From NCBI GenBank assembly GCA_015068055.1, contig SVLG01000039.1, forward strand, positions 1 through 19,310: a stretch of DNA of 19,310 bases, read 5' to 3'. Below the pieces are notes generated by a model. The model saw nothing but the letters and a program-made list of their open reading frames with translations. It made no database searches and was not told the DNA's origin. This DNA is from Oscillospiraceae bacterium (GTDB taxonomy: Bacteria; Bacillota_A; Clostridia; Oscillospirales; Oscillospiraceae). A program made the position numbers and the translations under genes. Shown in pieces: positions 10,682-19,310 of the stretch. The first letter of the stretch is position 1; the number at the start of each line of letters is the position of its first letter.

Positions 10682-13165
10682 TTAATACTGCTTATAGGCC
10701 GGCGTCCAGTAATGGTTGCCGTAGATGTCGGTGATGCGGTAGGTAACGGAGAAGGGGCCTCCGCTGAGCTGGAGGTTCTCCAACACCAGGCCGTCTTCAC
10801 CCACCACCAGAGCGCTGTCGAGATAGTAGCTGTCGTCGTACGTGCCGTCGTAGCGGTAGTAGTCACAGAGGAACTCGATCTCGTCGCCCACTTCAATGGC
10901 GATATCACCCTTGGCCAGAACCTCGGTCTCGTCCTCCTTATAGAGGGGGTAAGCACCGGTGATGCTGGCCTCGTCGTCCTCAAAGACCACCTGCAGATTG
11001 ACGGGCTCGCCGTTGAGCATGGCGGGGATGCGACCCACGGTGGTCCAGCTGCCATCGGCGTTCTCCGTGTCGCTGACCAGATAGTAGGCAGCCACCTGAC
11101 CATTGACAGTGAGCCAGGTGCTGTCGAAGCTCAGAAGAAGATCGCCGTCGTCATCAAAGTCAAAGCGGTTATCCAGACCCAGGTCGATAAAGCCCTGACC
11201 GTCGTCCACATAGACGTTCAGCTCCACGCTGTCGATGAGAGCCCATTCCTCGTCGGTGAGGGCAAGAACCTGCTGCCCATTCTTATACGTAGTGGTGATG
11301 CGGGCGGGGTCAAGGAAACTGGCAGCGATGGTCTCCGCCTGACGGGAAACAAGCTCCGTATCCATCCACTCCAGCTCCTGAGGCATTCTGCGGCCGCCGA
11401 AGGCGGACATCAGACCCATAATGGTGGCGGGATCGATGCTGTAACCGGCGGACGTGCCGCCCATGGCGTTGCCATAGCCGCCCAGCAGACTGCCCACGGG
11501 AGAGGCGGAGGAAGAACCGCCGTAGGCACCCAGCAGGCTGCCCAGCAGATCGCCGTAGTTCTGTCCGCCAAGGTAGTTGGAAGACTGGGAAGCGCTTCCG
11601 GCAAACTGACCGGCCTGACCCAGCGAGGCAAAGCTCTTGATACACTCGGTATAGGCCGAGTCAAGACCAATGCTCTCAAAGGTAGAGACGGCGCTGTTCA
11701 TAGAACTCATGGACTCATAGGGGAAGTAGATGCTGACGCCGTTGGCTCTGGAAATGGTGGTCTTGTTGTACTTGACGCAGTCACGGAGAGCCTCGGCCAG
11801 CGCTTTGGACTCGCTGCTGCCGATGCGGTCGCAGAGGTCGATGAGGTCGATCTGGTTGATGCGGCTGCTCTGGGCAAACTGGCGGACGCCGCTGCGGGCA
11901 TTGGACACCTGCTTATACTGGCTTCCTTCCAGCATGGCGGTGGTGGACTCGGCAAAGGCATTGAAGGCCGGAGGCACGCTGCCCTGCATCTCCGCAAGGT
12001 CGATGACAGAGAGGGTCACCTGGGCCCGGGAGGACGCCGCACAGCTGGCGGAGACGAAGTCATCGATCAGCGTCTCGGCGGTATCCACAGTGGGGGTGGA
12101 GGTGTTGTTGGAAAGCTCCGTGAGCCAGCCGGTGTAGTCCCAGCCGGTGCCGGGTTCGGTCTCCTCCGAGGCGATGAGATAGTCGGCATAGTCGTTGCAG
12201 ACCAGCGCCGTCTCCAGCGTGGCCATAAGGCAGGCGTCAAAGCCGATCCAGTCGAAAACGCAGTCGGCCTTTTCCAGCGCGCTGCGGATCTCAGCGAGGG
12301 TCATGGTGTCGGAGGAGGACTTCTTCTCGTCGTAACCGTAGCCGCTGATGGAGCCGCCGCCGTGATCCCAGAAGATGAGGATGTTCCGGTCGGCGGGGTA
12401 GTTCTTTTCGCAGAAGTCGATGAAGGCGGTGAGGTTATCCGGGTCGGTCATGGCTGCGGTACCGGCGTTGTCCACCAGACGCTGCAGACCACCGGTCTCG
12501 ATCTTATAGATCTCGTTCACCGAGGCGGACACAATGCTGTTCTTCCACTTTTTGCAGCCGCCGGTCTCCACGATGAGGTTGACCTTATCGGAGATCTGCG
12601 CCTTGGTCATCTCGGCCAGGTCGCTGGTGCCCATGCCGTACTTGGACTCCAGATCGGTGCCGCACATATAGACCATGATGGTGACGGTATCCTTGCCGCC
12701 GCCAAGGGGTACCACGCGCTTTTCACGGCCCGCACCGGATACAGCGCTCTGTACCGGGGTCTGGGTGGGCGCCGGTGCCACGGTCGGCGCAGGCGTGGCC
12801 ACCGGTGCCGCTGTGGGGGCCGTTACCACGTTCTGACTGGGATTGAACTCGGGTACCTGCGTCGGCACCTGAGCGCTTTGGCCGCCAAGACCGCCGGTGA
12901 TAAACAGGAAACCGCCGATCAGCAGCACGCCGATGAGTACAACGCGCCGCAGTTTTTTGGGCAGAGCGAAGAAGATGGTCAGCAGACTCAGCAGACTGCC
13001 GCCACCGGCACGCTGAGGCGCGCTGCCCCGGCTGCTTTGCCGGCTTTCGCCCCGGGGACCGCCGCCAACGGGGCCGGAAACGCCCGCCTTGCCGGTCTTG
13101 CCAACGTTTGCGCTGCCCTTGCCATAAGTGGTTTTGCGGCTGTGGGGCCGGTTATTTCTTTCCAT
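10682..13165 (-). CDS. Membrane-anchored clostripain-family (C11) cysteine peptidase
   Basis: 827 residues. Residues 1-55 are a basic Gly/Arg/Ser-rich cytoplasmic tail. A hydrophobic segment at about 75-95 (VVLIGVLLIGGFLFITGGLGG region) is a membrane anchor, followed by a Pro/Thr/Ala/Val linker (~97-140). The peptidase C11 domain starts with VTIMVYMCGTDLE near 161 and carries the catalytic pair His268 (ILIFWDHGGG) and Cys312 (IGFDACLMATLE). A Gly/Ser/Tyr-rich low-complexity stretch follows near two thirds of the length, then a ~230-residue C-terminal region of likely beta structure. The C11 domain should face outside and cut after basic residues, as family members do; the target is unknown. 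Start chosen for GAGGG 8 bases upstream. Confidence 0.92.
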   Translation of the reverse strand: MERNNRPHSRKTTYGKGSANVGKTGKAGVSGPVGGGPRGESRQSSRGSAPQRAGGGSLLSLLTIFFALPKKLRRVVLIGVLLIGGFLFITGGLGGQSAQVPTQVPEFNPSQNVVTAPTAAPVATPAPTVAPAPTQTPVQSAVSGAGREKRVVPLGGGKDTVTIMVYMCGTDLESKYGMGTSDLAEMTKAQISDKVNLIVETGGCKKWKNSIVSASVNEIYKIETGGLQRLVDNAGTAAMTDPDNLTAFIDFCEKNYPADRNILIFWDHGGGSISGYGYDEKKSSSDTMTLAEIRSALEKADCVFDWIGFDACLMATLETALVCNDYADYLIASEETEPGTGWDYTGWLTELSNNTSTPTVDTAETLIDDFVSASCAASSRAQVTLSVIDLAEMQGSVPPAFNAFAESTTAMLEGSQYKQVSNARSGVRQFAQSSRINQIDLIDLCDRIGSSESKALAEALRDCVKYNKTTISRANGVSIYFPYESMSSMNSAVSTFESIGLDSAYTECIKSFASLGQAGQFAGSASQSSNYLGGQNYGDLLGSLLGAYGGSSSASPVGSLLGGYGNAMGGTSAGYSIDPATIMGLMSAFGGRRMPQELEWMDTELVSRQAETIAASFLDPARITTTYKNGQQVLALTDEEWALIDSVELNVYVDDGQGFIDLGLDNRFDFDDDGDLLLSFDSTWLTVNGQVAAYYLVSDTENADGSWTTVGRIPAMLNGEPVNLQVVFEDDEASITGAYPLYKEDETEVLAKGDIAIEVGDEIEFLCDYYRYDGTYDDSYYLDSALVVGEDGLVLENLQLSGGPFSVTYRITDIYGNHYWTPAYKQY

Positions 13166-13200
13166 AAGGTTATCCCTCGCTTTTAAGGCTGTATAAAAGC

Positions 13201-13229
13201 AGTATAGCGCATTTTGCGCAGCGGTGCAA
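13201..13229 (-). promoter_or_regulatory. Promoter of the C11 peptidase gene
   Basis: Minus strand TTGCAC (13224-13229), 17-base spacer, TATACT (13201-13206), 36 bases before the start codon. Confidence 0.8.
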
Positions 13230-13230
13230 C

Positions 13231-13259
13231 TTGATTTGCGGAGCATATTGGTGTATGCT
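13231..13259 (+). promoter_or_regulatory. Promoter of the EamA transporter gene
   Basis: TTGATT (13231-13236), 17-base spacer, TATGCT (13254-13259). Its -35 box lies one base from the -35 of the divergent peptidase promoter, so the two probably compete for or share RNA polymerase. Confidence 0.65.
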
Positions 13260-13281
13260 TCAGGGGAAAGGGGGATTCTCC

Positions 13282-13695
13282 ATGTGGTTTGTATTCGCCA
13301 TTCTGTCCGCGGTTTTCGCCGCACTTACATCCATTCTCGCCAAAGTAGGCATTGAAGGAGTTAATTCCAATCTGGCCACGGCGGTGCGCACCATGGTCGT
13401 GGTGGTCATGGCCTGGGTGATGGTCTTTGTTACCGACGCTCAGGGAGGGTTGGGAGACATTTCCCGGCGCAGTTGGGTGTTTCTGACCCTGTCGGGTCTC
13501 GCCACCGGCGCTTCCTGGCTTTGCTATTACAAGGCCCTGCAGATCGGTGAAGTGGCTAAGGTGGTGCCCATTGACAAGCTCAGCGTGGTCATCACGCTGG
13601 TTTTGGCCTTTGTCTTTCTCCATGAGAAATTTACGCCCAAGTCTCTCGTGGGCTGTGTCCTCATCACAGCCGGCACACTGGTCATGGTACTGTAA
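13282..13695 (+). CDS. EamA-family transporter, half-size
   Basis: A 137-residue very hydrophobic protein with about four to five membrane segments, equal to one EamA (DMT superfamily) repeat; most relatives have two repeats and ~300 residues, and half-size members are thought to work as dimers. Visible features are the N-terminal segment MWFVFAILSAVFAALTSILA, a conserved GASWLCYYKAL region, and the terminal helix after FLHEKFTPKSLVG. The substrate cannot be told. The ATG at 13282 has AAAGGGGG (13267-13274) upstream, better placed than earlier in-frame starts that overlap the promoter. Single-gene unit ending in a strong hairpin. Confidence 0.88.
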   Translation: MWFVFAILSAVFAALTSILAKVGIEGVNSNLATAVRTMVVVVMAWVMVFVTDAQGGLGDISRRSWVFLTLSGLATGASWLCYYKALQIGEVAKVVPIDKLSVVITLVLAFVFLHEKFTPKSLVGCVLITAGTLVMVL

Positions 13696-13738
13696 AGGAA
13701 AGCAGACTCTCACTTTGTGAGGGTCTGCTTTCCTTTGG
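13694..13738. terminator. Bidirectional terminator between EamA and nitroreductase genes
   Basis: Stem of about 20 base pairs (13694-13713 with 13717-13736, one wobble) with loop TTT, starting in the EamA stop codon and ending 4 bases before the nitroreductase stop. The arms carry AAAGGAAA and TTTCCTTT, so T-rich tails exist in both directions. Confidence 0.85.
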
Positions 13739-13739
13739 G

Positions 13740-14294
13740 TCAATGTACCTTGCGCTCGGGGTCCACCTGAGGAAGATTTTCAAAGCTGCCGTAAAACACG
13801 GTTTCTTCCAGCGGCTTTCTGTAAGGATGAAACTCGGGATGGGGTTCACAGTCCTCCGCCGGATAGCCCAGCATCAGCAAAGCGACGATTTCCAGATTTT
13901 CCGGAATGGAAAAGCGCTCCCGGAGCAGAGGCTCCTTGAACATACCCACGATCAAGCTGCCGATGCCCAGTTCCTCGGCCTGATACATCATCTGTGTAAG
14001 GACAATGCTGACATCCACATCGCCGTACTCACGGCCGCTGCGGCTCTTCCAGCTTTCGCCCTTATCATAGCAGATGACAAGGACCACGTCCTGTCCGTAA
14101 AGGAAGGGTGTGCAGCCTCTGAGCTTTTCAACTTCTTCGCCCTTCAGCACAAGAATCCTCTGGGGCTGATAATTTACGGCCGTGGGTGCCCAGCGCCCCG
14201 CTTCCAAAATCAGCTGCAGCTTTTCCGGCTCAATAGAACGCGGATCATATTTTCTGACAGAATATCTCCGCTTTACCAAATCGGCAAATGCCAT
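13740..14294 (-). CDS. Nitroreductase-family FMN oxidoreductase
   Basis: A 184-residue flavin enzyme of the NAD(P)H nitroreductase superfamily, a normal length for the short bacterial branch. The FMN-binding N-terminus is KRRYSVRKYDPRSIEPEKL with the usual Arg/Ser/Arg pattern; the APTAVNYQPQ motif follows at about 37-46, and LGIGSLIVGMF supplies the second flavin contact. Substrate is unknown. The start is set at the second ATG (14294), which lies 9 bases after AGGAG; the first ATG abuts the ribosome site directly. Single gene with its own promoter. Confidence 0.92.
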   Translation of the reverse strand: MAFADLVKRRYSVRKYDPRSIEPEKLQLILEAGRWAPTAVNYQPQRILVLKGEEVEKLRGCTPFLYGQDVVLVICYDKGESWKSRSGREYGDVDVSIVLTQMMYQAEELGIGSLIVGMFKEPLLRERFSIPENLEIVALLMLGYPAEDCEPHPEFHPYRKPLEETVFYGSFENLPQVDPERKVH

Positions 14295-14321
14295 CGTTAT
14301 CATCTCCTGAAATTTTTTACA

Positions 14322-14350
14322 AGTTTACCACTCTGCCAAGGAAAAGGCAA
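14322..14350 (-). promoter_or_regulatory. Nitroreductase promoter
   Basis: Minus strand TTGCCT (14345-14350), 17-base spacer, TAAACT (14322-14327), 28 bases before the start codon. Confidence 0.7.
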
Positions 14351-14385
14351 GAGGAACCGGGCTTGGCCCCGCCCCCCTCCGCATG

Positions 14386-14414
14386 TTGAAATCAGCAAAG
14401 GACCATGCTACAAT
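14386..14414 (+). promoter_or_regulatory. Promoter of the interrupted tyrosine phosphatase gene
   Basis: TTGAAA (14386-14391), 17-base spacer, TACAAT (14409-14414), 26 bases before the remnant's ATG. No terminator is seen before 15044, so it may now drive the DUF6809 genes. Confidence 0.8.
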
Positions 14415-14439
14415 GTTTTTAAGAAAGCGGGGGACCTTT

Positions 14440-14481
14440 ATGATAAAAATACTGTTCGTTTGCCATGGCAGGATTCTCTGA
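14440..14481 (+). pseudogene. 5' remnant of a low-molecular-weight protein tyrosine phosphatase gene
   Basis: Thirteen codons, MIKILFVCHGRIL then stop. The first ten residues match the start of low-molecular-weight protein tyrosine phosphatases, whose active-site loop reads CxGNxCRSP; Cys8 would be the nucleophile. The gene keeps a good promoter and a GGGGGA ribosome site (14430s), but homology ends after CHG plus one base (14470), and no downstream frame restores the phosphatase. I infer that inserted DNA cut the gene at the start of its active-site codons. The missing 3' part would be expected at the far end of the inserted element, outside this window. Confidence 0.75.
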
Positions 14482-14587
14482 AAACGAAAAAAATCCTGTA
14501 ATATCAATGGTTTGCGGCCCCACAGAAAGCAGATTTACACCACACGGACCTCGATGTGACAAAAAACTATGAAAAACGAGGTCAACT

Positions 14588-14857
14588 ATGAGAATTTTGG
14601 AAGAGTTCTGGCACGGCAATATTGAGCCGACCGATTTCGGTCCCTTTTCCTGCGACGAGTACAAAGACCTGCTCCAACTGGTCAGCCGAAACGAAGACCG
14701 CCTCTGGAAAACCCTGACCGAGGAGCAGAAGAACCTTTTCAACAACTACCTCCTGTGCACCAGCGAGTTCCACGCCGTCTCCGACCGCCTGCTGTTTCAG
14801 AACAGCTTTAAGTTGGGTGCCAGAATGATGCTGGAGGTCATGGAGGATAGCTACTGA
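14588..14857 (+). CDS. DUF6809 family protein
   Basis: An 89-residue acidic, mostly helical protein. The start MRILEEFWHGNIEP, the middle SRNEDRLWKTLTEEQKNLF and the end FKLGARMMLEVMED match the pattern I know for DUF6809, small proteins of unknown function common in Firmicutes mobile elements. No catalytic residues are evident. The ribosome site is weak (CGAGG 6 bases before ATG). It lies 4 bases before the next small gene, so the two should be translated together, probably from the captured phosphatase promoter at 14386-14414. Confidence 0.75.
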   Translation: MRILEEFWHGNIEPTDFGPFSCDEYKDLLQLVSRNEDRLWKTLTEEQKNLFNNYLLCTSEFHAVSDRLLFQNSFKLGARMMLEVMEDSY

Positions 14858-14861
14858 AAAG

Positions 14862-15038
14862 ATGAACAAGATTATTACCAACAAGATCCGCTGCAGGAAG
14901 TGCGGCGATGTGATCGAAAGCAAATACACCCATGATTTCAGGTTCTGCAAATGCGGCGCCGTAGCCGTAGACGGCGGAAAAGAGTATCTGCGTCGTGTGG
15001 GGAATCTTGAAGATTGGGAAGAACTAAGCGAATTCTGA
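14862..15038 (+). CDS. Tiny zinc-ribbon protein
   Basis: A 58-residue protein starting MNKIITNKIRCRKCGDVIES. Two Cys pairs, CRKC (Cys11, Cys14) and CKC (Cys29, Cys31), form a rubredoxin-like zinc knuckle; the rest is a polar tail ending DWEELSEF. It resembles small zinc-ribbon proteins of unknown function found in clostridial genomes and elements. The start is 4 bases after the DUF6809 stop with only GAAAAG near it, so translation is probably coupled to DUF6809. Cys spacing, an intact frame and a terminator 5 bases after the stop support it as a real gene. Confidence 0.75.
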   Translation: MNKIITNKIRCRKCGDVIESKYTHDFRFCKCGAVAVDGGKEYLRRVGNLEDWEELSEF

Positions 15039-15254: not shown

Positions 15255-16607
15255 ATGCTGTATCGTAAAATCGAATCCCTCATTGAGGAGCATCTGAAAA
15301 GCGATTCCAAAAAGATCCTGCTCATCGACGGAGCCCGTCAGGTAGGCAAAACCTATATCATCCGCCATGTGGGCCAAAAGCTCTTCGAAAACTACATCGA
15401 GATCAACATGGTGGAGGACTCCCTCAGCTCCCGCCTCTTTGCCGAAACCAAGTCCGTGGAGGATTTCTACCTGCAGATCAGCATGCTGGAAGGCAGCAAG
15501 ATGAAGCAGAAGGAAAACACCCTGATCTTCATTGACGAGATCCAGGCATACCCTCACCTGCTGACGCTGCTGAAATTTCTGGCTCAGGACAACCGTTTCA
15601 CCTTTATCGCCAGCGGTTCCCTGCTGGGCGTCACGCTGTCGCAGACGACCTCCATCCCCATGGGCAGCATCCGCAAGGTGCGCATGTTCCCGCTGGACTT
15701 TGAGGAGTTCCTTTACGCCAACGGGCTAAATGAGTTTGCCATCTCCGCCATGCGCAAAAAGTTTGAACGGCTGGAGGCGCTGGACGAGGCAACCCACAAT
15801 AAGATGATGGATCTTTTCCGGAAGTATCTGTTGGTGGGCGGCCTGCCGGACGCAGTCAATTCGTATCTGGAGCATCACAACATCCAGCTGGTCCGGGAGA
15901 TCCAGCAGGAGATCCACGACTACTACGCCGCCGACGCATCCAAGTACGACGAGGAGCGCAAGCTCAAGATCCGCCGGGTCTATGACCTGATCCCCTCCAA
16001 CATGGAGAATAAGAAAAAGCGCGTCGTAGCCCAGAGCATCGAGAACAAAAAGGGCAAGACCTTCGCCGACTATCAGGACGAGTTCGAGTACCTTATCAGC
16101 GCCGGTATCGCCCTGAATGTGCAGGCAATTTCCAACCCGGTCTTCCCACTGATCGAGTCGGCGGGTAAGAACCTCCTGAAGCTGTATCTGAACGATGTGG
16201 GCATCCTCACCGGCATCCTCTACGGCAACAACATCCGCGCCGTGCTGGACGATGTGGCCAGCATCAACCTGGGCTCGGTGTATGAAAGCGTCGTGGCCAG
16301 CGAGCTCGTCGCCCACGGCTACAAACTCTTCTACTACGACAACCGCAGCAAGGGCGAGGTGGACTACCTCATCGACGATTACGCCAGTCTTTCCACCGTG
16401 CCCATCGAGGTCAAATCCGGCAAGGACTACACCGTCCACAGCGCCCTCAACGGCTTCGTGCAGAACGAGGACTACCGCATTCAGAAGGCCTACGTCGTCT
16501 CCAACGAACGCAATATCACCACCAAGGGCAAGATCACCTATATCCCCATCTACTACATCATGTTCTTCCGGAACGCCCCGGAGAATGCCGCTGAGCTGAG
16601 GATCTGA
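15255..16607 (+). CDS. AAA ATPase with DUF4143 domain
   Basis: A 450-residue protein. The N-terminal AAA ATPase (AAA_14) has Walker A GARQVGKT (26-33), Walker B TLIFIDEIQ (89-97) and a sensor-like FIASGSLL. The middle has RKYLLVGGLPDAVNSYLE, typical of DUF4143 proteins. The C-terminal DUF4143 region carries GEVDYLID (Asp370) and VPIEVKSGK (Glu385, Lys387), the arrangement of a PD-(D/E)xK nuclease core, so it may be an ATP-dependent nuclease; this is inference. ATG chosen because GGGAGG lies at 15242-15247. It precedes hsdM by 45 bases with no terminator. Its role with the restriction system is unproven; cargo or stand-alone defence gene are both possible. Confidence 0.88.
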   Translation: MLYRKIESLIEEHLKSDSKKILLIDGARQVGKTYIIRHVGQKLFENYIEINMVEDSLSSRLFAETKSVEDFYLQISMLEGSKMKQKENTLIFIDEIQAYPHLLTLLKFLAQDNRFTFIASGSLLGVTLSQTTSIPMGSIRKVRMFPLDFEEFLYANGLNEFAISAMRKKFERLEALDEATHNKMMDLFRKYLLVGGLPDAVNSYLEHHNIQLVREIQQEIHDYYAADASKYDEERKLKIRRVYDLIPSNMENKKKRVVAQSIENKKGKTFADYQDEFEYLISAGIALNVQAISNPVFPLIESAGKNLLKLYLNDVGILTGILYGNNIRAVLDDVASINLGSVYESVVASELVAHGYKLFYYDNRSKGEVDYLIDDYASLSTVPIEVKSGKDYTVHSALNGFVQNEDYRIQKAYVVSNERNITTKGKITYIPIYYIMFFRNAPENAAELRI

Positions 16608-16652: not shown

Positions 16653-18431
16653 ATGGTCAATATAAGAAAGCTGGAAGCGGAACTTTGGGAGTCGGCAGAT
16701 CTTCTGCGTCAGGGCTCCAAACTGACCTCCAATCAGTATTGCATGCCCGTGCTGGGTCTGATTTTTCTTCGCTATGCCTACGGCCGTTTCAAACTGGTGG
16801 AGGCTGAAATACTGAAAAACCGCCCGGTCCGCCATGGCCGTGTGCTGCCGGTGGAAGCCAGCGACTTTGCAGAAAAGAGCGCTCTTTATTTGCCTCCCGA
16901 AGCCCGCTATGACTATCTGGTCAATCTCCCGGCAAGTACCGACATTGGCAAAGCCGTAAACCGTGCTATGGATCTGATCGAAGCGCAGAGCGAGCAGCTG
17001 GTGGGTGTTCTGCCCAAGGACTATACCATGTTCACCAACGAAATCCTTTCCGAGCTGCTGCGCATCTTTAATAACAGCGCTCTGGATGAGGTGGGCGATG
17101 ACATCCTGGGCCGCATCTACGAATACTTCCTCAATAAATTTGCCAAGAACATCGCATCCGACGATGGCGTATTCTTCACGCCCAAATCCCTGGTCAAAAT
17201 GATCGTCAACGTGCTGGAGCCCAAGAAGGGTATCCTTCTCGATCCTGCCTGCGGCAGCGGCGGTATGTTTGTCCAGACGGGCGACTTTGTGAACCACGCC
17301 GGCATGTCCGCCAATGCCGCCATGACCTTCTACGGGCAGGAAAAGGTGGAATATAACGCCCAGCTTTGCCTGATGAACATGGCAGTTCACGGTCTCAACG
17401 GCAAAATTCTCTCCGGCAACGAAGCCAACACCTTCTATAACGATGCCCACTCTCTGGCGGGCTGCTGCGACTATGTCATGGCCAATCCGCCCTTCAACGT
17501 GGATAAGGTCAAGTCCGAGTCCGCACAGAACGCCGGTCGTCTCCCCTTCGGTTTGCCCTCCATCAATGCTGCCAAAGAATTCGGCAATGCCAACTACCTT
17601 TGGATCTCCTATTTCTACGCCTACCTGAACGAAACCGGTCGGGCCGGCTTTGTCATGGCCTCCTCTGCCACCGACAGCTCCGGCAAGGATCGGGATATCC
17701 GCCAGAAGCTGGTGGAGACCGGCCATGTGGACGTGATGATGAGCGTAGGCAACAACTTCTTTTATACCAAGTCCCTCCCCTGTTCCCTGTGGTTCTTTGA
17801 TAAGGGCAAAGCCGAGACTATCCAGGACCACGTTCTCTTCATCGACGCCCGGAACTACTACACCGTGGTGGATAAAACCCTGAATGAGTGGAGCGAGTGG
17901 CAGCTGAAGAATCTGAACGCCATTGTGTGGCTGTATCGGGGCGAGGTGGAGAAATATACCGCTCTGCTGAACGAATACCGTCAGATTTTGGGACAGGCAA
18001 TTTCTTTTGAAGAGATTCACGTGGCGCTGAATGATGATTTGAAAGAACTGCAGCGCAGAGCGAAAATAGAAGTAGAGGCTGCGGCCCGCAAAGATAAAAA
18101 GCGAGTTCAGGCTTACTACGATGAAATGATCGCGGAAAAGGCAGAAGCTATTACCGTTGCGAAGGAAGCAGTCTGGCTTTATGAGAAGTTCGGCGAGGGA
18201 ACATATCAGGACATCCCCGGTCTGTGCAAGCTGGCAAGCCGCGCCGAGATCGCAGAGAAGAACTACTCTCTGACTCCCGGTGCCTATGTTGGTGTGGCTG
18301 CGGTGGAGGATGACGGCGTGGACTTTGCTCAGCGCATGGGCGAGATCCACCGGGAACTGCTGGAACTGCAGGCAGAATCCAACGAACTGATGCAGACTAT
18401 CTCCAAGAATATGAAGGAGATGGGACTATGA
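16653..18431 (+). CDS. hsdM: Type I restriction-modification system, DNA methyltransferase subunit HsdM
   Basis: The N6-adenine methylating subunit, which works with HsdS (target recognition) and HsdR (cleavage). 592 residues, complete. N-terminal HsdM_N region (MVNIRKLEAELWESADLLRQ), then the methylase: SAM-binding DPACGSGGM at 197-205 and catalytic NPPF at 278-281. YNAQLCLMNMAVHGL and GRAGFVMASSA are also typical. The C-terminal part is a long charged coiled region (about 450-530) followed by the HsdM-typical LTPGAYVGV and a helical tail. AAAGGA lies upstream of the ATG. The stop overlaps the hsdS start as ATGA, so translation is coupled. Confidence 0.97.
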   Translation: MVNIRKLEAELWESADLLRQGSKLTSNQYCMPVLGLIFLRYAYGRFKLVEAEILKNRPVRHGRVLPVEASDFAEKSALYLPPEARYDYLVNLPASTDIGKAVNRAMDLIEAQSEQLVGVLPKDYTMFTNEILSELLRIFNNSALDEVGDDILGRIYEYFLNKFAKNIASDDGVFFTPKSLVKMIVNVLEPKKGILLDPACGSGGMFVQTGDFVNHAGMSANAAMTFYGQEKVEYNAQLCLMNMAVHGLNGKILSGNEANTFYNDAHSLAGCCDYVMANPPFNVDKVKSESAQNAGRLPFGLPSINAAKEFGNANYLWISYFYAYLNETGRAGFVMASSATDSSGKDRDIRQKLVETGHVDVMMSVGNNFFYTKSLPCSLWFFDKGKAETIQDHVLFIDARNYYTVVDKTLNEWSEWQLKNLNAIVWLYRGEVEKYTALLNEYRQILGQAISFEEIHVALNDDLKELQRRAKIEVEAAARKDKKRVQAYYDEMIAEKAEAITVAKEAVWLYEKFGEGTYQDIPGLCKLASRAEIAEKNYSLTPGAYVGVAAVEDDGVDFAQRMGEIHRELLELQAESNELMQTISKNMKEMGL

Positions 18432-19310
18432 GTTGGCAAGAGATTATCATTGCAGATTTGGGTGAGATAATAACCGGTAAGACACCGCCTACGTCAACAA
18501 AAGAGAATTATGGAGGAAATATTCCTTTTATTACACCTTCAGACATGGTGGGAAACCGTACTGTTTATGAAACAGAACGCTATATCTCTGAGCAGGGTAA
18601 AAAGACGGTGAAGAATTGTATGTTACCTCCTTGCTCGGTATGTGTTTCGTGTATTGGCTCTGATATGGGTAAAGCGGTAATAACATCCAAAGAGAGTATT
18701 TCAAATCAACAAATCAACTCGATTATTTGCAATGAGGGATATGACCATCGCTTTGTATATTATTTGATGCTTACATTGCGTGACACCATCCGTAGCCTCG
18801 GAAAAAATGCTACGGCTGTTCCAATTTTAAATAAGAGCAAATTTTCCAATATCTCCATTATGGTTCCTCATCTTGATACACAAAACAGAATTGCAAATAT
18901 TCTTTCTATATATGATGACTTGATTGAAAACAACCAAAAGCAGATCAAGCTGTTGGAGGAAGCGGCGCAGCGACTGTATAAAGAGTGGTTTATGGATCTG
19001 CGTTTCCCCGGCCACGAAACCACCCCCATCGCTGATGGTGTCCCAGAGGGATGGCAGCGCAAGACAGTGGCAGAGTGCCTTTCCTTTCACGGTAATGGCG
19101 GCTGGGGAAAGGAAACACCTATGGGAAAAAATGAACACCCCGGTAAAGTGATTCGTGGAACAGATATCGAAGACATAAAAGCGGGTCGCTTCAATGATGT
19201 GCCTTTGCGGTATCATACCGATAATGACATCAAGAAGAGGACTCTGAAAAACTATGATTTGGTATTTGAATTGTCGAATGGCAATATCAACAATATCGGT
19301 CGTTGTCTGC
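18428..19310 (+). CDS. hsdS: Type I restriction-modification specificity subunit HsdS (C-terminal part beyond window)
   Basis: DNA target-recognition subunit; 294 codons are visible and the frame is open to the window end. Target-recognition domain 1 spans about residues 1-150, including GEIITGKTPPTSTKENYGG and PFITPSDM. The conserved spacer helix follows (QNRIANILSIYDDLIENNQK, 152-171, on to LLEEAAQRLYKEWF), then the second domain opens with VPEGWQRKTV and is cut off. Base composition shifts: domain 1 is clearly AT-rich, the spacer and start of domain 2 are GC-richer like hsdM, a mark of domain exchange. hsdR is not in the window. Confidence 0.93.
   Translation, partial: MSWQEIIIADLGEIITGKTPPTSTKENYGGNIPFITPSDMVGNRTVYETERYISEQGKKTVKNCMLPPCSVCVSCIGSDMGKAVITSKESISNQQINSIICNEGYDHRFVYYLMLTLRDTIRSLGKNATAVPILNKSKFSNISIMVPHLDTQNRIANILSIYDDLIENNQKQIKLLEEAAQRLYKEWFMDLRFPGHETTPIADGVPEGWQRKTVAECLSFHGNGGWGKETPMGKNEHPGKVIRGTDIEDIKAGRFNDVPLRYHTDNDIKKRTLKNYDLVFELSNGNINNIGRCL

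Follow-up and report, generated by a model that had tools for sequence, protein, structure and literature searches.

In Vibrio, the SXT ICE sits in prfC and supplies its target gene with a new 5' end and promoter. Elements that enter the 5' end of a conserved gene are also known from streptococci, where ICEs in rbgA, ftsK and ebfC use a tyrosine integrase and leave the N-terminus of the protein unchanged; the upstream region and promoter are replaced in two rbgA cases and in ebfC (PMC4701971). A satellite prophage, SpyCI, enters mutL at its 5' end and parts the gene from its promoter until excision restores it (cited in PMC4701971), with excision reported to follow growth phase (PMC4701971). 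With the serine-integrase ICEs in rumA, attR lies inside the serine integrase gene and rumA is disrupted (PMC4701971). Tn916 and Tn1549 insert with low specificity into AT-rich DNA (PMC4701971, PMC8138268). They are described in the latter as an exception to site specificity within the IntTn916 subgroup; its clusters contain integrases of phages side by side with those of ICEs, often with specific sites at conserved genes (PMC8138268). IMEs have been described to stack in tandem (PMC5704250).

Here we analyse a window of 19,310 nucleotides (the whole stretch of DNA under study) from an Oscillospiraceae bacterium (contig SVLG01000039.1, assembly GCA_015068055.1), in which the start of a gene for a low-molecular-weight tyrosine phosphatase (LMW-PTP) breaks off inside the catalytic-loop codons. 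We consider it very probable (roughly 0.87) that this break is the attL of an island that uses a Tn916-type integrase and excisionase (Int and Xis) and a 10-bp core, with the gene rebuilt at attR and elements stacking at the site. Such elements would resemble SXT in prfC in giving the target a new 5' end, and differ from it in recombinase, gene and host. With the streptococcal ICEs (PMC4701971) they share the tyrosine integrase and the 5' end of a conserved gene; they differ in target gene and hosts, in a core that lies within catalytic-loop codons, and in a site that is used and stacked by phage, Rep/Mob elements and small restriction islands. As with SpyCI, a gene loses contact with its promoter through integration at the 5' end. 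The likeness to Tn916 and Tn1549 consists of an Int with PF02920 and PF00589, a PF09035 Xis and the location of int at one end, whereas the LMW-PTP-linked integrases sit at one gene and stand apart by 100/100 branches. In mixing phage and element integrases, with a specific site at a conserved gene, they match the IntTn916 subgroup as described in PMC8138268.

LMW-PTP was not found as an integration target in the titles and abstract openings of open-licence papers, a search that left the serine recombinase case described below outside its scope, and the word 'phosphatase' is absent from the main texts of PMC4701971, PMC5704250, PMC6907783, PMC12884075 and PMC8138268. The kind of element is known; what appears to be undescribed is LMW-PTP as a target, this group of integrases and the arrangement with a spare gene.

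The junction in the window

The features of the window that bear on the junction are the following.

13740-14303, minus strand: nitroreductase gene, the chromosomal left neighbour (PF00881, 1.5e-25; relatives 80% in L001 and 71% in L002)
14386-14414, plus strand: probable native LMW-PTP promoter, TTGAAA-17-TACAAT, 10 of 12 consensus bases, putative in function and now reading into the island; TTGAAA at 14386-14391, 17-bp spacer, TACAAT at 14409-14414
14429-14434, plus strand: G-rich ribosome site
14440-14481, plus strand: stub, LMW-PTP codons 1-10 followed by RIL and a stop, ATG at 14440
14461-14470, plus strand: 10-bp core TGCCATGGCA, the attL crossover region and the stretch common to stubs and rebuilt genes
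14495-14510, plus strand: element-end motif 1 (arm-like), CCTGTAATATCAATGG, offset 24, 15 of 16 bases to consensus
14534-14541, plus strand: element-end motif 2 (arm-like), TTTACACC, offset 63
14588-14857, plus strand: DUF6809 protein, first cargo gene (PF20648, 9.7e-21)
14862-15038, plus strand: DUF7695 protein (PF24749, 3.2e-30)
15255-16607, plus strand: AAA_14/DUF4143 ATPase, candidate defence protein (PF13173, PF13635; PADLOC PDC-S01, 3e-180)
16653-18431, plus strand: HsdM, type I methyltransferase (PF02384, 5e-75; PF12161)
18428-19310, plus strand: HsdS, specificity subunit, incomplete because the window stops here (PF01420, 3.3e-27)

The sequence-only reading had recognized a promoter, a ribosome site and ten intact codons running into unrelated DNA, and all of this can be read directly in the window. 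Codons 1-10 of LMW-PTP (MIKILFVCHG) occupy 14440-14469/14470; past them AGG ATT CTC TGA completes a 13-codon reading frame with its stop at 14481. Homology between the window and intact genes ends past TGCCATGGCA, and since A14470 is the final base that they have in common, we place the core at 14461-14470. Beyond the break point the intact genes of relatives continue A(C/T)AT(C/T)TG. The promoter 5' of the stub fits the proposal that a captured native promoter now points into the element. Downstream, the predicted DUF6809 gene, zinc-ribbon gene and defence operon are borne out by Pfam as DUF6809, DUF7695, AAA_14/DUF4143, HsdM and HsdS.

Around the junction the G+C content drops, from 0.54-0.58 to 0.43-0.49; most of the genes beyond are back at 0.51-0.59. 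The DNA 5' of the stub is probably the native 5' flank, since the promoter is present and, by eye, an element-end motif is absent there. The window reaches 4.8 kb into the island, to 19310, and the rest of the island is reconstructed from relatives. By blastn the island of the window gave no match to phages and partial matches to 10 plasmid records, and an exact search for the window's left end in viral contigs returned 0. In the nearest relatives by nitroreductase, L001 (in genome G001) and L002 (in genome G002), no LMW-PTP lies next to this gene, so they provide no empty site for the window. Two further features of the neighbourhood may be mentioned: the stretch 13288-13695 encodes a half-size EamA transporter of 135 aa with a single repeat, and the AAA_14/DUF4143 ATPase adjoins the type I restriction-modification (RM) operon. 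Among the matches listed, up to two further scanned proteins match the PDC-S01 model group.

A recurrent break point

Two families were compared, with 299 genomes from the family of G001 (a Lachnospiraceae bacterium) and 300 from that of G002 (an Oscillospiraceae bacterium). Searched by blastn with window positions 13150-14500, the 299 genomes gave gene matches and many short matches stopping near base 14470; in 20 short-match regions examined, a break directly after CACGGCA or CATGGCA was found at nine places in eight regions, with varying DNA beyond. A stub pattern, defined as codons for K-I/V-L-F-V/I-C-H-G followed by A and a non-A base, occurs at 64 sites in 52 of the 299 genomes and at 13 sites in 12 of the 300. 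One match in each family is an intact gene reading HGSICRSP (L170 and L190), and their removal leaves 63 broken starts in 52/299 genomes and 12 in 12/300 (L154 being a duplicate of part of L153). These counts are minima, because the pattern demands a non-A base after the core and stubs followed by A escape it (L299, L307, L311). The expectation that other genomes would carry the same kind of fusion, and that the target lies in the CxGNxCRSP codons, is thereby upheld. Chance similarity was rejected as an explanation: the reversed control pattern had 0 matches in the same listed genomes and the end motifs lie at equal offsets (see below), so the window break exceeds what chance would give.

One target in many genomes with a common core amounts to site-specific integration, unlike low-specificity insertion into AT-rich DNA. 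In the family of G001, 95/299 genomes bear at least one of two marks, a broken start and a tyrosine integrase linked to LMW-PTP. An LMW-PTP match above the Pfam cut-off is present in 51 of the 52 stub-bearing genomes, G066 being the sole one in which such a match was not found; for G039, G084 and G194 the top hit is poor (1e-12 to 1e-17), so that a paralogue may be involved.

Could the window have arisen with no insertion at all, the stub being a short functional leader reading frame or the relic of a gene after deletion or rearrangement? The stub is indeed a tidy 13 codons with promoter and ribosome site, but an identical break point with differing DNA beyond it at 63 sites, shared end motifs and a full gene downstream leave this explanation hardly credible.

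The phosphatase gene is rebuilt in relatives

When stub loci were examined with up to 19 kb beyond the stub, a full-length LMW-PTP gene with a rebuilt start was found downstream on the same strand at 20 of 58 broken-start loci, 1.2 to 18.8 kb away; many of the others stop at a contig edge. The count was 21/58 at first, and L136 (G049) was removed from the pairs as a spare of the serine type and retained among the 27 islands. The sequence-only reading had the gene simply cut, which does not hold for relatives: it is rebuilt at full length (tyrosine elements) or replaced by a spare (serine elements). Loss of the gene was likewise rejected for the window.

In alignments anchored on the core, the stub and the rebuilt start have the coding start and the core in common and diverge from the next base. 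The core TGCCACGGCA stands on both sides in 16/20 pairs and the other 4 differ at 1-3 bases. Upstream, the DNA before the stub and that before the rebuilt start are unrelated except at L137, L138, L149 and L162. At these four loci (in G291, G292, G081 and G263, respectively) the two copies are alike for approximately 87-260 bp before the core, which suggests that closely related elements are stacked in a row there.

Between stub and rebuilt start, codons 2-7 of the 20 pairs contain 39 codons that differ silently and 20 with a residue change, and the changed bases number 23, 2 and 42 at codon positions 1, 2 and 3; the comparison is descriptive rather than a formal selection test, on stubs chosen by pattern. 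Because the changes are mostly silent, the element-borne start seems to have been kept as coding sequence. The ribosome site, the ATG and codons 1-10 are thus the element's own, apparently maintained as a working protein start, and because it supplies these the gene is rebuilt in full at the far end.

The rebuilt gene of the relatives is cut off from its native promoter. In 49 gaps between integrase and gene, a sigma-70-like promoter (at least 9/12) occurs in 21 (43%, with 47% in single-base shuffles) and a perfect-stem terminator in 4. With gap promoters not above chance and terminators rare, the rebuilt phosphatase may be expressed by read-through from xis-int.

A tyrosine integrase linked to the site

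In G143 the genes before the rebuilt LMW-PTP gene encode an integrase of 397 aa, an excisionase of 67 aa and a Rep_trans protein. All five LMW-PTP-linked integrases scanned contain PF02920 (Integrase_DNA of Tn916) and PF00589 (Phage_integrase), and the excisionase matches PF09035 (Tn916-Xis). The closest solved structure to the integrase is 6emy (1.4e-83), and the integrases of pMG2200 and pCF10 are 46-47% identical to that of G143; we take pMG2200 and 6emy to be of the Tn1549 type and pCF10 to represent Tn916.

Used as a query against the 299 genomes, the G143 integrase found 127 matches in 99 genomes at 1e-60. Within 600 bp after the match, 60 are followed by a full-length LMW-PTP gene (among them L257 of G196, a serine-type stub with a spare copy) and 6 by a stub, while 4 stop too soon and 57 are followed by something else, a number that counts against our explanation. 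The best 39 of the 127 by E-value are all LMW-PTP-linked (37 full genes, 2 stubs), within 530 bp. From integrase stop to gene start the distance is 142-201 bp in 44/54 measured cases, with a maximum of 530.

A maximum-likelihood tree of 91 rows (89/96 integrases and 2 references, with 7 fragments shorter than 340 aa left out) places all 50 full-gene and 4 stub rows on the 68-row side of a branch with 100/100 support; no LMW-PTP-linked row is among the 23 rows on the opposite side, where Tn916 (pCF10) and the Tn1549 type (pMG2200) are found. The 68-row side includes 11 rows classed as 'other', 9 of which belong to a subclade of 12 rows that also contains two tailed-phage integrases. For three of these nine (L192, L241, L244) an intact or broken LMW-PTP start lies 1.1 to 6.6 kb past int, and in the stretches examined for the remaining 6 no LMW-PTP start was seen. 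In a second tree, of 44 chosen rows and including later finds, a Tn916/Tn1549 group of 18 rows without linked rows is once more set apart at 100/100. The elements differ from the Tn916/Tn1549 transposon itself in their single target with a common core and in the separation seen in both trees.

Two integrases stand somewhat aside. That of L326 (G118:C6), 45% like the others, lies 138 bp before an LMW-PTP gene; in the second tree it is a long branch of unsure place, and it may mean that the site has been adopted independently once more. At L085 15356-16522 (G286), a different tyrosine integrase (PF00589 and PF14659) lies inside an LMW-PTP island, upstream of Tn916-type xis-int.

Element-end motifs and the proposed reaction

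Motif 1 (CCTGTAATATCAATGG) has one match in the window at up to 3 mismatches, with 0.34 expected. It reaches at least 11/16 in 18/72 left ends, all at offset 23-25 and 12 of them at 24, compared to 4.3% of shuffles, the consensus having been picked after viewing the left ends and the shuffles being single-base. Motif 2, as TTTAC or TACTACAC, lies at offset 60-63 in 21/60 left ends (offsets 56-68 sought; 1.2 expected in single-base shuffles), and the window's TTTACACC at offset 63 fits these other left ends. Together with the recurrent break point, the matching offsets support the proposal that the window holds the left end of an island. Motif 1 stays below 11/16 in 54/72 left ends, which counts against our explanation; several families of element ends therefore exist. 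With regard to function, both motifs are putative integrase arm sites, an assignment suggested by the PF02920 domain.

The reaction we propose is as follows. A Tn916-type tyrosine integrase, with its Xis encoded alongside it at the far end of the element, would join the core TGCCAYGGCA in the catalytic-loop codons of LMW-PTP with an identical core on the element, which would be preceded by the element's own ribosome site, ATG and first codons. Integration would leave at attL the native promoter and the codon 1-10 stub, reading into the left end of the island and its cargo, and at attR the order int, gap and full-length phosphatase with an element-borne 5' end. The rebuilt gene would be a target again, so that elements could stack in tandem. 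Junction, core and motifs lie in the window itself; for integrase, rebuilt gene and arrays the evidence comes from relatives, and the window's island presumably ends as theirs do, by the same reaction.

It counts against our explanation that a clean pair of empty and filled sites with a common native flank was not found when the flanks of G245 and G207 were compared within their genera. In G245's genus, G600 and G245 have such an integrase before LMW-PTP and G607 and G609 have none, which speaks for occupancy of the site rather than for a clean pair because the upstream DNA failed to align. G207's genus was represented by one genome.

A serine recombinase family at the same loop

The sequence-only reading had suggested a serine recombinase as the agent. 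G144 encodes a large serine recombinase (PF00239, PF07508, zinc ribbon) whose frame of 623 residues runs on into the 3' half of LMW-PTP starting KVCRSP, comparable to the attR within the serine integrase gene of the rumA ICEs (PMC4701971). The family of G001 has 69 matches to this recombinase in 56/299 genomes at 1e-30. Among the 30 of these 69 loci examined, the best four (G144, G071, G196, G049) run into the LMW-PTP 3' half (KVCRS) and no LMW-PTP was found at the other 26. The serine-type break, NIC|RSP, lies 8 bp beyond the tyrosine core, and the stub ends CHGNIC in G144, G049 and G196; in G071 a serine-type stub was not seen. A complete spare LMW-PTP gene follows the stub after 65-73 bp in these three genomes, unlike the rumA ICEs, which disrupt rumA. 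The spare genes form a type of their own, with starts MIRVMFCCHG, MIRVAFCCHG and MVRVLMCCHG. From stub to 3' half the distance on one contig is about 7.6 kb in G144 and 11.9 kb in G196; G049 is split over two contigs. In G196 the broken gene had earlier been rebuilt by a tyrosine element, the integrase of which lies just upstream (L257). The loci are:

L076, 154-8200 (G144:C27): serine-element locus
L257 and L356 (G196:C111): serine-element loci
L136, 6350-6930, and L357 (G049): serine-element loci

That a large serine recombinase cut the window's own gene in its active-site codons is very improbable, even with a serine family that runs into the LMW-PTP 3' half in four genomes. Serine stubs break after NIC and are followed by a spare gene, while the break in the window comes 8 bp sooner, past GGCA, no spare gene follows its stub and its motifs are of the tyrosine kind; in addition, the 300 genomes of the second family gave no match to the serine recombinase at 1e-60. 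The suggestion is thus not supported for the window, whose type of scar goes with PF02920, PF00589 and PF09035, and was right for the target in general, since a serine family breaks the same loop in four genomes. Judging by its left end, we rejected the serine recombinase for the window and favour the Tn916-type integrase.

With serine elements the native promoter stays before the spare gene, and with tyrosine elements the native gene body stays behind an element-borne start. A speculative and rather unlikely extension is that two unrelated recombinase families converged on the phosphatase loop with opposite upkeep, that the phosphatase is under control of the elements and that excision resets its read-through expression. 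Tyrosine elements would then preserve the gene body while exchanging its promoter, serine elements would exchange the gene body while preserving its promoter, and in the tyrosine case the native promoter would be diverted into cargo (DUF6809 and DUF7695 in the window). If this were true, the phosphatase would be a thing that elements control and not a neutral landing pad.

The site is a common and apparently undescribed landing pad of mobile DNA, occupied or marked in 95/299 genomes of the family of G001. Its precise core and its site-specific kin of the low-specificity Tn916/Tn1549 integrases offer a case for studying how specificity is gained or lost, and possibly integration tools for bacteria with few genetic tools. 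For annotation, short MIKILFVCHG reading frames should be read as scars, and the ends of prophages can fall in the LMW-PTP gene.

Islands, cargo and arrays

In the islands, cargo includes, among the matches listed (25 of 418 PADLOC and 25 of 112 Pfam families), RM of types I, II and IIG, Schlafen, YhcG and Mob proteins; the scan covered 146 of 162 island ORFs of at least 120 aa and 2 window proteins. The RM cargo of the window agrees with that of its relatives. With regard to relaxase or conjugation genes, a Rep_trans protein lies beside xis-int in G143 and MobA_MobL occurs in 1 of 148 scanned proteins; no relaxase or conjugation gene was found in the visible part of the window's island, to 19310.

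A hit to the LMW-PTP-linked integrases lies right before the next copy in 10/27 delimited islands (9 long, 1 a fragment), and right before the gene in 7/20 stub-to-rebuilt-gene islands, one of them a fragment; the latter count speaks against our explanation. With so few, many islands are likely decayed or non-autonomous; the remaining stub-to-rebuilt islands may be decayed, non-autonomous or using something else. That the window's island is itself of this kind, with attL and attR and no integrase, moved in trans or fixed in the manner of a CIME, is a serious possibility to which we give somewhat less than even odds. The 10/27 count favours it, as does a visible cargo of restriction and accessory genes only; within the window's 4.8 kb it would look the same as an island with its own integrase, and it is a variant of our explanation, not its opposite.

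Elements are stacked in tandem at the site. Two stubs in the same direction share one contig in G143, G027, G286, G144, G178 and G124, and many stub flanks have approximately 80-330 bp in common with sequence that precedes LMW-PTP genes in other genomes, frequently genes linked to an integrase; we read such flanks as probable right ends of earlier elements. Very small islands between two phosphatase starts were observed at L175 (G252, 1.2 kb), L174 (G144, 1.7 kb) and L146 (G146, 2.2 kb). No hit to LMW-PTP-linked integrases lies inside these three, which are candidate non-autonomous elements.

A tailed prophage uses the site as well. In viral contigs the stub pattern occurs in nine stretches, of which at least one (L291) looks like chance and another (L292) has two integrase-stub units in a row. 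Arrangements of the integrase-to-gene and stub-to-gene kinds occur in two contigs from the human gut, MT836428.1 and MT837131.1, and in Ruminococcus phage NatCom_3870 (55% integrase) an LMW-PTP site of such kind was not found. Monoglobales phage CHVD 5762 (PV036456.1, 'complete genome', Ca. Heliusvirales) carries such an integrase, and one end of its record (L289, 1-380) codes for residues 1-126 of an LMW-PTP, in a gene that starts with MIKILFVCHGNICRSP; judged by this arrangement, it is a tailed prophage at the LMW-PTP site. The phosphatase stretch of PV036456.1 is annotated 'similar to hypothetical protein', and the end of the record looks like a prophage border inside host DNA.
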